Shown here piece after piece: positions 1-6,818 of a DNA stretch of 64,000 bases; within the stretch, counting starts at the first letter, position 1; each line of letters begins with the position of its first letter. The position numbers and the translations under genes are program-made. Under the pieces are notes generated by a model. The model worked only from the letters and a program-made list of their open reading frames with translations, did no database searches and was not told where the DNA came from. Origin of the DNA: Caldifarciminota bacterium (lineage in GTDB: Bacteria; Hydrothermota; Tepidihabitantia; SM23-42); contig CP070705.1 in the NCBI GenBank assembly GCA_020349965.1, positions 1,179,650 to 1,243,649 on the forward strand, in the 5' to 3' direction.

Positions 1-929
1 GAAAGGAGCAATGATTCGCCTTCTATTCCTTCGAACCGGAAATGTGCGTTGTTAGGGAGACGTAGGGTAGGGTGACCGTTGAGATACGATCTCGGCACAA
101 GATCAAGGACTTTTTCTATCAATCTGTCTCGATACCGCTGAAGGCGTTTAGTTTCCGTGGCCATCTCCTCGCCCATGATCTCTGCAGCCCTTTTCATCCC
201 GGCGATGGCGGCAATGTTCTCTGTCCCGGACCGCAGACCGCGTTCTTGTCCTCCGCCAATGATCAGGGGATTGATCCTAATACCTTTCTTCACGTACAGA
301 ACACCGAGCCCCTGGGGACCGTATATATCATTGGATGATAAAGCCATCAAGTCGATATTATCTCGCTTGACGTCGATCGGGATCAGCCCCTCCGCAGCAA
401 CGGCATCGGTATGGAATGTGATGCCCTTGTCGCGGCACAATCTACCAATGGTCTCGATCTGTTGGATCGTGCCTATTTCATTGTTCGCGTACCCTATCGA
501 TACCATGATCGTCTTATCGGTGACGCGCTCGGATATTTTTTCGATGGCGATTCTGCCGAATTGGTCGACCGGTACTCTCGAAACCGTGAAGCCGTTCTTT
601 TCGAGATACTTGGTGATGTTAAGAATCGATATGTGCTCGATCTCGGAGATAATGATGTGATTGCCTTTGTCTTTGTTTCTCAGTGCGTGACCGACCAAGG
701 CAAGGTTATTAGATTCGGTCGCGCCGGATGTGAAAATTATTTCATCTCGCTCGGCACCGATGAAGCGCGCGACTGCTGCACGTGATGCCTCGAGCACTTC
801 GGTCGCAGTGTCGCCGACCCTGTGGAGTGAGGAGGGGTTGCCGGACTTGTCGTGGAGGTATGGGAGCATTATCTCGACGACTCTCGGATCGACCGGCTTC
901 GATGACTGGTAATCAAGATAGACGCTCAT
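1..929 (-). CDS. IscS/NifS-like protein lacking the PLP lysine (partial, 3' end off window)
   Basis: About 309 codons of a class V aminotransferase-fold protein are present; the C-terminus, including the loop with the persulfide cysteine, lies beyond base 1. The fold is clear from the TSGATESNN, ANNEIGTIQ and GGGQERGLRSGTEN motifs. Active desulfurases have S-x-H-K-x-x-G-P-K-G with the Schiff-base lysine. Here the stretch reads S198 S N200 D201 I Y G P Q G, so His is Asn and Lys is Asp. The usual D-A-V-Q pair of the PLP site reads D175-A-V-A178, and the N-terminal LDNAATT motif reads LDYQSSK. From memory, the same SSND signature occurs in Archaeoglobus fulgidus IscS (Asp199), reported to have no desulfurase activity and to lend a cysteine ligand during cluster assembly. 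A similar scaffold or partner role is my inference. The gene starts 16 bases after dsrE-like and is the last visible gene of the perR operon. Confidence 0.9.
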   Translation of the reverse strand, partial: MSVYLDYQSSKPVDPRVVEIMLPYLHDKSGNPSSLHRVGDTATEVLEASRAAVARFIGAERDEIIFTSGATESNNLALVGHALRNKDKGNHIIISEIEHISILNITKYLEKNGFTVSRVPVDQFGRIAIEKISERVTDKTIMVSIGYANNEIGTIQQIETIGRLCRDKGITFHTDAVAAEGLIPIDVKRDNIDLMALSSNDIYGPQGLGVLYVKKGIRINPLIIGGGQERGLRSGTENIAAIAGMKRAAEIMGEEMATETKRLQRYRDRLIEKVLDLVPRSYLNGHPTLRLPNNAHFRFEGIEGESLLL

Positions 930-945
930 CGTTCTGGGCCTCGCA

Positions 946-1308
946 TCAGAACCACATGGTCGCCGATGCATCGAGCGCAAGGTCGTTGAGCGTACCTGCG
1001 CCTACTATCTTAAGTCCAGGCAGCAATTCTACGGTATCCCATCCTAGCATTTGCTTCGATGCTTCACATACGTAAACATCTATGCCCATCTTCATCGTCT
1101 TCGAGATCATATCGCCCAAGTTGGGGAAGGAACCGATCTTTGTCTGCGCAGCTGTATCGGGCTTCAACACGCGCAGTGCCTGTCCAAGATAGTATACCTG
1201 AGCGTCGATATCCATCGCTTTTGCAGTCTGCGCGAGGACCAACGGAGAGTATTGACGTTCAGGGTCGTCGCTTGTTTGGACATAAAGAATCCGTTTCTTT
1301 TTGTTCAT
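946..1308 (-). CDS. DsrE/DsrF-like sulfur-relay protein
   Basis: A 120-residue cytosolic protein with the DsrE/F-like Rossmannoid fold: an N-terminal ILYVQTSDDPER strand-loop, a central LAQTAKAMDIDAQVYYLGQAL helix-strand unit, and a VYVCEASKQMLGW segment near residues 80-92. Proteins of this family bind or pass on persulfide sulfur. The cysteine in the VCEAS stretch lies where family members such as TusD/DsrE carry their active cysteine, but I cannot align it exactly. ATG at 1308 is preceded by a TAGGAG Shine-Dalgarno that overlaps the stop codon of the TusA-like gene, so the two are probably translated together. The partners suggested by position are the TusA-like protein upstream and the IscS-like protein downstream. 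Confidence 0.8.
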   Translation of the reverse strand: MNKKKRILYVQTSDDPERQYSPLVLAQTAKAMDIDAQVYYLGQALRVLKPDTAAQTKIGSFPNLGDMISKTMKMGIDVYVCEASKQMLGWDTVELLPGLKIVGAGTLNDLALDASATMWF

Positions 1309-1317
1309 AGTTCACTC

Positions 1318-1560
1318 CTACTTCGTTCGTCTTAACAGGAAACGTATTATATCACGCTGCTTCTCGAATTTGACGATTTCGTGGCCGGTTCTCTTGGCGA
1401 ACCGTTTTATATCTTCTTCAGCGGCAGGATCATCGGCAAGAACTTCGAGTATTTCGCCGATCTCGATCGCGTCCATGCCCTCCCGTGTTTGGAATAGCGG
1501 TTGCGGGCAGTACAACCCAACACAGTCTACTGTTTTCTTCGGTACTTGCTCGTCGTCCAT
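1318..1560 (-). CDS. TusA/SirA-family sulfur carrier
   Basis: An 80-residue protein with the hallmark C-P-x-P motif (C18-P-Q-P) of TusA/SirA/YeeD sulfur carriers, plus a second cysteine at C13. The rest fits the two-layer alpha/beta fold, with GEILEVLADDPAAEEDIKRF before a GHEIV strand. In known members the CPxP cysteine receives persulfide sulfur from a cysteine desulfurase. I chose ATG 1560, 20 bases after the upstream ferritin-like gene; the longer in-frame reading back to 1614 overlaps that gene and adds a non-homologous tail. It belongs to the perR operon, beside DsrE-like and IscS-like genes, which points to sulfur trafficking in iron-sulfur repair or sulfane-sulfur handling. The direction of sulfur flow is not known. 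Confidence 0.88.
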   Translation of the reverse strand: MDDEQVPKKTVDCVGLYCPQPLFQTREGMDAIEIGEILEVLADDPAAEEDIKRFAKRTGHEIVKFEKQRDIIRFLLRRTK

Positions 1561-1580: not shown

Positions 1581-2087
1581 TCAGAGCAGAGGAGAGAACC
1601 GCTGCTCTGCCCAATAATCCTCCTTCAGCAATTCGAGTTGTCTGGTTATTGCCTCGAGATGATTTTCTTCCCAGTGCTGTAACTGCTGATACAATGCTCT
1701 TGCCGAGGGGTCATCGCTTATCTCTTTCATTTTGCGGTAGAAATCGATAGAATTCGATTCGAGCAACGCCCCGATGCTCAGGGCAGAAACCTCGAAATGC
1801 ATTTCGCCGGCACGTTTTTTCAGTTCTGCGGAGAATATCGGACTTTCACCATCGTATGCGCTAATCTTTCCAAGTTCGATCTTTTGCCACTCTTCATTGT
1901 CAAGCAATGACGAGTACTCCTTCTGCAGTGCCTTGTAGTGTTTGATCTCGTCATTGGCGAGCATCTTGAATACACGTTTACCTTTTTCGTCCGCAGTCTT
2001 TTCTGCTGCTATTCTATAAAACTCAATGCCGTTAAGCTCGGTCTGAAGGGCTATTCGCAAACCCTCGATTGATTTTGATTTTTCCAT
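1581..2087 (-). CDS. Rubrerythrin-like diiron protein without rubredoxin domain
   Basis: 168 residues forming a four-helix ferritin-like bundle with two repeats of the diiron motif: E in LNGIEFY and E-x-x-H in NDEIKH in the first half, then E in LLESNSIDFY and E-x-x-H in WEENH in the second. No cysteine pair for a rubredoxin centre is present, so an electron donor must be separate; the free rubredoxin at 5915-6076 is the natural candidate. Proteins of this type reduce peroxide or protect against oxygen. A Shine-Dalgarno (AAGGAG) precedes ATG 2087. It is one of four different ferritin-like genes in this operon, each only distantly similar to the others. Confidence 0.88.
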   Translation of the reverse strand: MEKSKSIEGLRIALQTELNGIEFYRIAAEKTADEKGKRVFKMLANDEIKHYKALQKEYSSLLDNEEWQKIELGKISAYDGESPIFSAELKKRAGEMHFEVSALSIGALLESNSIDFYRKMKEISDDPSARALYQQLQHWEENHLEAITRQLELLKEDYWAEQRFSPLL

Positions 2088-2190: not shown

Positions 2191-2841
2191 TCAGCATGGT
2201 ATCGAGAGATCCTGGAGTTGCTTCACACGCGCGAGGGCTCTTTCCTTGAATTCAACAGGAAGATCATGACTCGGGATAGTTTCGCCGATACGGGCGGTCT
2301 CCTCCATGATTAATTTCATGTGCCTTTTTCTTGCTTCATTGCTGATCGGTTTCTCACCCTGTAATTTCCAACCGCCTTCCATGAAACCTTCAGGGAAGTA
2401 CCAATCTTTGAACCAGGTGAACCCGCGCGTCAGCATCTCAAAACCTAATCTGCTGAGTACGATAGGGAATCCTCTCTGTAGAAGCAGCATCGTTTCCTTG
2501 TCCGTGTAATATTCGATGAATAACTTTGCACCGGCGTTGAGGCTTGTGCTGAAAGCGTCCAGTATACCTTCTTCGAACCGGGATCCGAAATAGTCCACAA
2601 TTCTGTTCTCAATTCCTATCGATGCATTGATGTTGAATAATTCGATCCACGGAGAGTAATCGGGCGGCCGGCCAAAGAAGATTTTTGCGTTACCAATGTA
2701 TGCTCGGCCGGTTTTCGTCCGGCAGTGTAATTCCGCATTCTGTTCTTCTCGGAATCTGCCCGGTATCATTCTGTGAATATAAATTGAGTAACCATTCACG
2801 CTGATACCACTGCGCAGTGATTCTACCATTTCACGAAGCAT
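2191..2841 (-). CDS. Conserved protein of unknown function (possibly DUF1122)
   Basis: 216 residues, soluble, with no signal peptide or membrane segment. It is rich in aromatics, with a central stretch (residues about 85-150) containing ENRIVDYFGSRF, AGAKLFIEYYTDKET and RLGFEMLTRGFTWFKDWY, and an acidic-basic C-terminal helix. I have a weak recollection that it resembles the DUF1122 family of archaea and anaerobic bacteria, but cannot confirm this. No catalytic motif is evident. It sits between two ferritin-like genes in the PerR-controlled operon, so a role in the response to oxygen or peroxide is likely by association only. The gap of 103 bases to the next gene and 60 bases to the previous one contains no obvious promoter. 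Confidence 0.75.
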   Translation of the reverse strand: MLREMVESLRSGISVNGYSIYIHRMIPGRFREEQNAELHCRTKTGRAYIGNAKIFFGRPPDYSPWIELFNINASIGIENRIVDYFGSRFEEGILDAFSTSLNAGAKLFIEYYTDKETMLLLQRGFPIVLSRLGFEMLTRGFTWFKDWYFPEGFMEGGWKLQGEKPISNEARKRHMKLIMEETARIGETIPSHDLPVEFKERALARVKQLQDLSIPC

Positions 2842-6112: not shown

Positions 6113-6337
6113 TTAGAAGACCTGCTCGACTGCTCGAACTTCGGGTATCTTATCCTTCAGAGTCTTCTCGATTGCCATCTTGAGCGTTAAGGTGCTCATC
6201 GGACATGTTCCACAGGCACCGGTCAGTTTCACCTTGACGACGCCATCATCAGTGACTTCAACCAATTCAACGTTTCCACCATCAGCTTCGAGGTTTGGTC
6301 TTATTTCACCTAAGACCTTTTCGACCTTTTCCTTCAT
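6113..6337 (-). CDS. NifU C-terminal domain (Nfu-type) iron-sulfur scaffold/carrier
   Basis: 74 residues comprising only the Nfu domain, with C42-G-T-C45 in the GACGTCPMS motif that binds a bridging [4Fe-4S] cluster between two subunits. The family delivers iron-sulfur clusters to target proteins. The N-terminal half starts with the usual [21 protein letters not shown] helix-strand pattern. A strong AAGGAGG lies before ATG 6337. Its place as second gene of the perR operon, with an IscS-like gene at the far end, suggests a dedicated cluster assembly or repair set that responds to oxidative damage. Confidence 0.95.
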
Positions 6338-6371: not shown

Positions 6372-6818
6372 TCACGCTTGTTGTTTACGCTGTCTCTTCA
6401 AACATTCTTTACAGAGCCCCTTAAAATAGCCGTGTACTTCCTCAATGAGATACCCCTTCATGCTCTTTCGTTCAGCAACCGGGCACTGTACGTCGACGTC
6501 CGAAATACGCCCGCACATTCTGCAGAGGAAGTGATGGTGCGGTTCGGTCAAGAAATCGTACCTCACCTCTGTTCCTGTGATCGTTATTGCTGAAACGAGC
6601 CCTGCCTTAAGGAATGAGCTGAGTGCATTGTAGACCGTTGTCATTGAAAGCAGGGGCATTTCTCCGGAGAGGGCAGTATAGATCTTTTCCACGGTTAGAT
6701 GTTCTTTCCTATGTTCCTGTAGATAGTCGAGTATCATGAGACGCTGGTAGGTGGGTTTGAGGCCCTTTTCCGCGAGGAGCTCCTTCAAGTGTTCGCTATT
6801 TGAAGTCATTTTAATCAT
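6372..6818 (-). CDS. perR: PerR-type peroxide-sensing Fur-family repressor
   Basis: 148 residues: a winged-helix DNA-binding half and a C-terminal dimerisation half. The Bacillus subtilis PerR regulatory metal ligands (H37, D85, H91, H93, D104) are all present with a constant offset of three: H40, D88, H94, H96, D107. Having Asp rather than Glu at the last position separates PerR from Fur. The structural zinc site is C99-x-x-C102 and C136-x-x-C139. PerR represses peroxide-defence genes until Fe-catalysed oxidation of its histidines. ATG 6818 falls at the predicted +1 of a consensus promoter, with no Shine-Dalgarno, so the mRNA should be leaderless; ATG 6809 is the alternative. It heads the operon that runs down to base 1. 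Confidence 0.93.
   Translation of the reverse strand: MIKMTSNSEHLKELLAEKGLKPTYQRLMILDYLQEHRKEHLTVEKIYTALSGEMPLLSMTTVYNALSSFLKAGLVSAITITGTEVRYDFLTEPHHHFLCRMCGRISDVDVQCPVAERKSMKGYLIEEVHGYFKGLCKECLKRQRKQQA

Follow-up and report, generated by a model that had tools for sequence, protein, structure and literature searches.

A bacterial lysine-less IscS encoded in a conserved tusA-dsrE-iscS-iscU module: a candidate sulfur relay for iron-sulfur cluster assembly

Introduction

The account of Archaeoglobus fulgidus IscS that PMC7585200 gives, citing Pagnier 2014, describes a protein that has no desulfurase activity because aspartate replaces the PLP lysine, and one of whose cysteines ligates the IscU-bound cluster. 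The first-pass annotation of the DNA analysed here had likewise stated both the inactivity and the cysteine ligand. The A. fulgidus structure features a dead IscS holding a cluster, without showing where its sulfur comes from. Methanosarcina IscS1 has also been reported to lack the PLP lysine (PMC7585200), and four neighbouring genes of unknown function are listed in the literature for the isc1 cluster. Among the potential sulfur-handling partners, TusA Cys19 of E. coli lies about 4 Å from IscS Cys328 in a crystal (PMC2854127), a TusA and an IscU can be bound together on a single IscS dimer (PMC11302665), and there is precedent for directed transfer, of thiosulfate, from DsrE to TusA (PMC4175335). 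The gene module described below addresses the question of how sulfur is supplied to IscU without a working cysteine desulfurase.

Results and Discussion

The 64,000-nucleotide stretch of DNA analysed here (the window; C1:1179650-1243649 of a 2.30 Mb genome) begins within a minus-strand ORF that translates as MSVYLDYQSSK...HTDAVAAEG...LMALSSNDIYGPQG (Table 1). The window edge cuts this gene, whose complete ORF of 387 aa spans C1:1179415-1180578; the off-window remainder (C1:1179415-1179649) encodes the persulfide-loop Cys324, which is kept within STGSACSS. The lysine that forms the PLP aldimine in catalytic IscS/NifS (S-x-H-K) is absent from this protein and Asp201 is found at its position, and Ala178 occurs where active enzymes have Gln. 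Asn200, Asp201, Ala178 and the LDYQSSK segment, all picked out in the first-pass annotation, are each present in the translation, and the extension of the contig that it had proposed places the iscU start 1 bp past the iscS stop and recovers the loop cysteine.

Table 1. Features of the lysine-less iscS locus (window positions unless prefixed C1).
Feature	Position	Strand	Evidence and remarks
IscU fused to half thioredoxin reductase	C1:1178640-1179413, off window		PF01592 E 4e-49; next gene downstream of iscS
iscS homolog, Asp201 for PLP lysine	1..929	(-)	PF00266; N-terminal 309/387 residues inside window
Asn200-Asp201 codons (His-Lys in active IscS)	327..332	(-)	ATG 929-927; N200 = 332-330, D201 = 329-327
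DsrE-family sulfur carrier, Cys motif VCEAS	946..1308	(-)	PF02635 E 9e-16; 16 bp upstream of iscS
TusA-family sulfurtransferase, CPxP cysteine (CPQP)	1318..1557	(-)	PF01206 E 7e-24; 9 bp upstream of dsrE
Rubrerythrin/ferritin-like protein	1581..2087	(-)	PF02915; 23 bp upstream of tusA; first upstream stress gene; order conserved in family
Nfu-type cluster carrier (NifU C-terminal domain)	6113..6337	(-)	PF01106 E 4e-29; farther upstream
Fur-family protein, putative PerR-like	6372..6818	(-)	PF01475; Asp in CGRISDV

The best PDB match is A. fulgidus IscS2 (4eb5, E 1.8e-98), with all lysine enzymes ranking below it. An entry for the same A. fulgidus protein, 4r5f, reads SSNK at the SSND site in the alignment, which presumably reflects an engineered Asp-to-Lys variant. 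The window IscS misses the NifS/IscS equivalog cut-offs (TIGR03402, 474.5 vs 530.75; TIGR02006, 404.6 vs 643.2) and barely passes that of the broad PRK02948 subfamily (304.9 vs 304). Judged from its active-site residues, the protein would form no internal PLP aldimine and would therefore not desulfurate cysteine. A protein that still binds PLP without a Schiff base and performs residual or different cysteine or selenocysteine chemistry would be consistent with the PLP-contacting Thr71, His99, Asp175 and Ser198, which are retained in nearly all sampled Asp-type proteins, but we consider this very unlikely, as fold-type I enzymes cannot work without the lysine, the equivalents of His205 and Gln183 are lost too and the A. 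fulgidus relative is reported to be inactive.

Full-length orthologs from 17 other genomes of the window's family (67-94% identity) also read SSND, and [ST]TGSAC-type loops are present in all full-length family orthologs; the G011 and G013 proteins are cut short where their contigs end, and the family genomes G008 and G017 yielded no ortholog. This conservation in practice rules out a sequencing error or a pseudogene as the source of SSND. Across the sampled Asp clade, the PLP-lysine column is Asp in 52/52 sequences (Lys in 47/47 Lys-type IscS), the preceding column is Asn in 51/52 (His in 47/47) and the Gln column is Ala in 48/52 (Gln in 47/47), while the loop cysteine is present in all 51 Asp-clade sequences that cover that site. 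A degenerate DNA pattern for SSNDxYGP matched in 29 of 147 genomes of the window's phylum and in 47 of the 393 genomes from the phylum to which the ANME-2 locus L045 belongs, a few of them by chance; the matches L235, L242 and L260 were rejected as IscS and are chance matches only.

In quick trees without bootstrap, Asp-type IscS proteins form one clade (SH-aLRT 96-100) with A. fulgidus, actinobacterial, WOR-3 and archaeal members. Such a tree of IscS with and without the lysine had been called for in the first-pass annotation, and the kinship with A. fulgidus that it had claimed is borne out: the window IscS shares both the clade and SSND with 4eb5. The window protein is a bacterial member of the described lysine-less IscS type. 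WOR-3 genomes contribute two separate Asp-type branches, that of the window's family near the actinobacteria and another amid archaeal sequences, an arrangement that suggests inter-domain transfer. A bacterial-like version with 68% identity and a half-thioredoxin-reductase IscU fusion was also found on a 4.9 kb contig labelled Thorarchaeota (L041), which is probably misbinned.

The window genome also encodes a SufS-like protein and, near a gene identified from its sequence as that of an Rrf2-type regulator, a Lys-type IscS-IscU pair. The loss of catalytic residues next to an active-looking lysine IscS in the same genome could reflect a degenerating paralog without selected function, but this is extremely improbable and already strongly disfavoured by the 67-94% identity, with the whole operon kept in most family genomes and in archaea, and by the retention of the loop and partner cysteines.

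The gene order at the window locus is tusA, dsrE, iscS, iscU, with gaps of 9, 16 and 1 bp. A lone orphan iscS within a stress operon is ruled out by the adjacent iscU, and the contrast with a plain isc operon that had been drawn earlier does not stand, as iscU is the very next gene after iscS. The tie to sulfur carriers claimed at the same time holds clade-wide. HMM searches of neighbourhoods detected tusA and/or dsrE just upstream in 74 of the 77 Asp-type loci for which 900 bp or more of upstream sequence was available (tusA in 69/77), which come from WOR-3/Stahlbacteria, actinobacteria, archaea and Bacillota, and iscU near 76 of 81 Asp-type iscS genes. No upstream tusA or dsrE was detected at any of 106 distinct Lys-type loci, which comprise 70 mostly bacterial loci (0/70) and 37 taxon-matched archaeal (including Halobacteriota) and WOR-3 loci with flanks of mostly only 1.5 kb (0/37), one locus belonging to both sets. 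TusA linkage as a general trait of IscS loci is ruled out by these controls. The difference between Asp-type and Lys-type loci, calculated over 107 Lys-type entries with the shared locus entered twice, has a Fisher p of about 1e-48 when kinship is ignored, and the trait changes just one to a few times on the tree; the linkage goes back to one or two evolutionary events, and its strength is long persistence across phyla, not repeated origin.

The active cysteines of the carriers are kept in the clade (TusA CPxP, 70/70; DsrE Cys motif, 55/56), as are the IscU Cys/Asp sites in nearly all loci. The position of E. coli TusA Arg31 is Glu or Asp in 68/70 TusA proteins of Asp-type loci, and the TusA docking surface is therefore only partly conserved and is a mixed discriminator of Asp-type loci. 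An A. fulgidus-like genome has two Asp-type isc loci (L211 and L212) whose IscU ORFs are identical, one with tusA-dsrE upstream and the other with dsrE and no tusA found.

At 257 aa, the IscU of the window locus is not a stand-alone scaffold of about 14 kDa. All cluster ligands are present (NPVCGD, FGCGS and HCSN; three Cys and one Asp), and over its last 110 residues the protein matches a thioredoxin reductase NADPH domain (TIGR01292, E 4e-14). The corresponding domain of the ortholog at L042 matches PDB thioredoxin reductase sequences (E 1e-7), and a Foldseek search with an AlphaFold2 model of this ortholog (mean pLDDT 75, linker disordered) returned NADP-bound 3f8r at 2.3 Å over 108 columns. 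All bacterial IscU fusions lack CxxC and the Gly-rich nucleotide motif, and the FAD domain is missing from them as well. At ANME-2 loci, IscU is fused to a full FAD-type protein (NifU_N plus Pyr_redox_2) that has lost CxxC, and full flavoprotein fusions also occur at two further archaeal loci. These complete, thioredoxin-reductase-like fusions include those at L045:7163-8512, L047:4419-5747, L239 and L240, with CxxC lost in 4/4 and the FAD-binding Gly motif kept. Three archaeal loci feature a separate, CATC-bearing thioredoxin reductase directly upstream of tusA. This repeated link between IscU and a reductase suggests that a reductase originally served the IscU of Asp-type loci.

Two features appear to be new: the tie of a lysine-less IscS to sulfur carriers in the order tusA-dsrE-iscS-iscU, and an IscU fused to half a thioredoxin reductase without CxxC and the Gly-rich motif. 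In the open-access literature we found neither a paper linking lysine-less IscS with TusA/DsrE nor a description of an IscU-thioredoxin reductase fusion.

Analysis of other lysine-less forms revealed that Methanosarcina IscS1 (L315:779-3519) carries a Lys-to-Thr change (SAHTIHGP or close to that) and has tusA-dsrE upstream in 5/5 genomes; no tusA-dsrE is found at the Lys-type iscS copies of those same five genomes. In its IscU1 the fusion partner is a MIP18-like FeS_assembly_P domain (PF01883), unlike the one in the window's IscU. A common clade of Asp and Thr forms is not rejected in trees, and with only one or two independent pairs a separate gain of carriers with each lysine loss is unsupported. 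A Ser-type IscS (SAQS[VI]YGPKG) occurs in two genomes of the window's class (L141:5995-7218 (+) and L142), on long branches within the Asp clade in the quick trees. At both loci, an IscU with a C-terminal zinc ribbon is followed by a glutaredoxin and an FTR-beta/rubredoxin protein (FTR, ferredoxin-thioredoxin reductase) resembling their counterparts in the window operon, and no tusA or dsrE was found; lysine loss is therefore not always accompanied by the carriers. The Asp form is the sole IscS/SufS-like PF00266 protein in six archaeal genomes, the next best matches being aminotransferase-like; one of the six is that of A. fulgidus (G187, recognised by an IscS that the tree places as practically the same protein as 4eb5). 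G107, G115 and G141 also encode a high-scoring SufS-like protein (checked by NCBIfam for G107 and G141).

The window operon places the module among stress genes, with rubrerythrins, ferritin and an FprA flavoprotein upstream and a copper ATPase, glutaredoxin, FTR, desulfoferrodoxin and peroxiredoxin downstream. At L006:13115-16607, outside the window, a copper ATPase with a YHS domain, a glutaredoxin and an FTR-beta-rubredoxin protein follow iscU in the same direction, and this set is kept in much of the window's family. A DUF1122 protein (window 2191-2841) lies amid the rubrerythrin genes in some relatives and is missing in others. Gaps of 150-190 bp between the upstream genes leave room for separate promoters; a promoter and terminator scan of the core genes gave results near shuffle expectation. 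The Fur-family protein, which we take to be PerR-like from the Asp in CGRISDV, lies about 5.4 kb upstream and by proximity is a possible regulator of the iscS module; the PerR control put forward in the first-pass annotation goes no further than this proximity.

This setting, together with the fact that TusA normally accepts sulfur from IscS, could reflect a reverse or repair function, in which IscS(D)-IscU would bind or dismantle damaged clusters or reactive sulfur during oxidative stress and pass sulfur out to TusA/DsrE. We regard such a function as quite unlikely, because the archaeal Asp-type core largely lacks these stress genes and because a purely repair role would leave A. fulgidus, with the Asp form as its sole IscS/SufS-type homolog, without IscS-based assembly.

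The occurrence of lysine-less IscS almost always after TusA/DsrE and before IscU suggests that the protein assembles iron-sulfur clusters from sulfur obtained otherwise than by desulfurating cysteine itself. A mechanism is tentatively proposed, to which we give close to an even chance, where the lysine-less IscS acts as a sulfur relay and cysteine-ligand platform within the tusA-dsrE-iscS-iscU module. DsrE and TusA would carry sulfane sulfur from sulfide, polysulfide or thiosulfate, and TusA would dock on the lysine-less IscS as it does in E. coli and hand the sulfur to loop Cys324, or directly onward; the loop would then deliver it to IscU. Once the PLP lysine is lost, the obvious exchange point between sulfur-bearing TusA and IscU would be the loop cysteine, and Cys324 might also ligate the cluster, in line with what is reported for A. 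fulgidus. The thioredoxin-reductase-like domain on IscU may once have been an electron-supplying reductase that in the window's family has been reduced to a probable docking domain. In this scheme, which way the sulfur flows, its origin and the requirement for Cys324 are inferred. Because the window's organism also has an ordinary, lysine-bearing IscS-IscU pair, the module is probably a second pathway there, used under oxidative, metal or sulfur stress. The broader proposal of a widespread, cysteine-independent ISC variant, in which TusA/DsrE load sulfur onto a catalytically dead IscS that feeds IscU, sometimes with a fused flavoprotein reductase, is plausible but somewhat doubtful.

Several points speak against the relay. 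In E. coli, TusA is an acceptor of sulfur from IscS, the opposite of the proposed flow; TusA and DsrE could instead be acceptors or redox sensors; the Ser-type lysine-less IscS occurs without tusA/dsrE; and the Arg31 change leaves the docking surface only partly conserved. The main rival is a sulfide-fed scaffold, where the lysine-less IscS merely provides the Cys324 ligand and shields the IscU cluster, free sulfide is the sulfur source and TusA/DsrE have another task. This is the published reading of the A. fulgidus IscS-IscU structure, as cited in PMC7585200, and is consistent with the sulfide feeding of IscU in anoxic E. coli lacking IscS (PMC13015791) and of SMS in M. jannaschii (PMC12192291), and with host organisms that look anaerobic. 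It leaves unexplained, however, why tusA/dsrE lie beside the lysine-less and not the lysine IscS across bacteria and archaea, and we consider it a serious but unlikely explanation. Of the "non-catalytic scaffold partner" suggested in the first-pass annotation, the non-catalytic part is retained, as a reading of the residues, but a structural role alone does not account for the conserved TusA/DsrE.

The conserved gene order provides a concrete candidate for the sulfur source, within reach of experiments on four small proteins, and a possible electron donor is indicated by the fusion of IscU to a flavoprotein. If the proposed relay is true, the module would replace a cysteine desulfurase in Archaeoglobi and would be an added stress pathway in WOR-3 bacteria.

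Comparison with known systems

The closest described system is A. fulgidus IscS2-IscU (4eb5, 4eb7, 4hvk), which shares with the window locus SSND, Ala for Gln, the loop Cys, an adjacent IscU and the same clade (49% identity over 305 residues between the IscS proteins); the A. fulgidus-matching genome likewise has dsrE upstream at one locus and tusA-dsrE at the other. Unlike A. fulgidus, the window system is bacterial, lies in a stress-gene operon, has an IscU with a thioredoxin-reductase-derived domain and coexists with a lysine IscS. M. acetivorans IscS1-IscU1 (MA0808-MA0807) also combines a lysine-less IscS, upstream tusA-dsrE and an extended IscU, but has Thr in place of Asp, keeps the His and has the MIP18-like PF01883 domain as its IscU1 extension. 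A minimal ISC system (MIS), for which MisS and MisU clades have been published, is mentioned in PMC12192291.

E. coli IscS belongs to the same fold family and has the same TusA/IscU partner set, both partners docking around Cys328 (PMC2854127), but it is an active PLP desulfurase that donates sulfur to TusA. The DsrE/TusA modules of sulfur oxidisers such as Metallosphaera cuprina resemble the window's in clustering TusA with DsrE and passing on sulfane-level sulfur (PMC4175335); they are tied to dissimilatory Hdr-like enzymes, whereas those of the window adjoin iscS-iscU. Finally, thioredoxin reductase (S. solfataricus TrxB3, 3f8d; M. mazei, 4zn0) has an NADPH domain that the C-terminal domain of IscU matches in sequence (E 1e-7) and fold, but the CxxC, Gly-rich nucleotide motif and FAD domain of that enzyme are missing from the bacterial IscU fusions.
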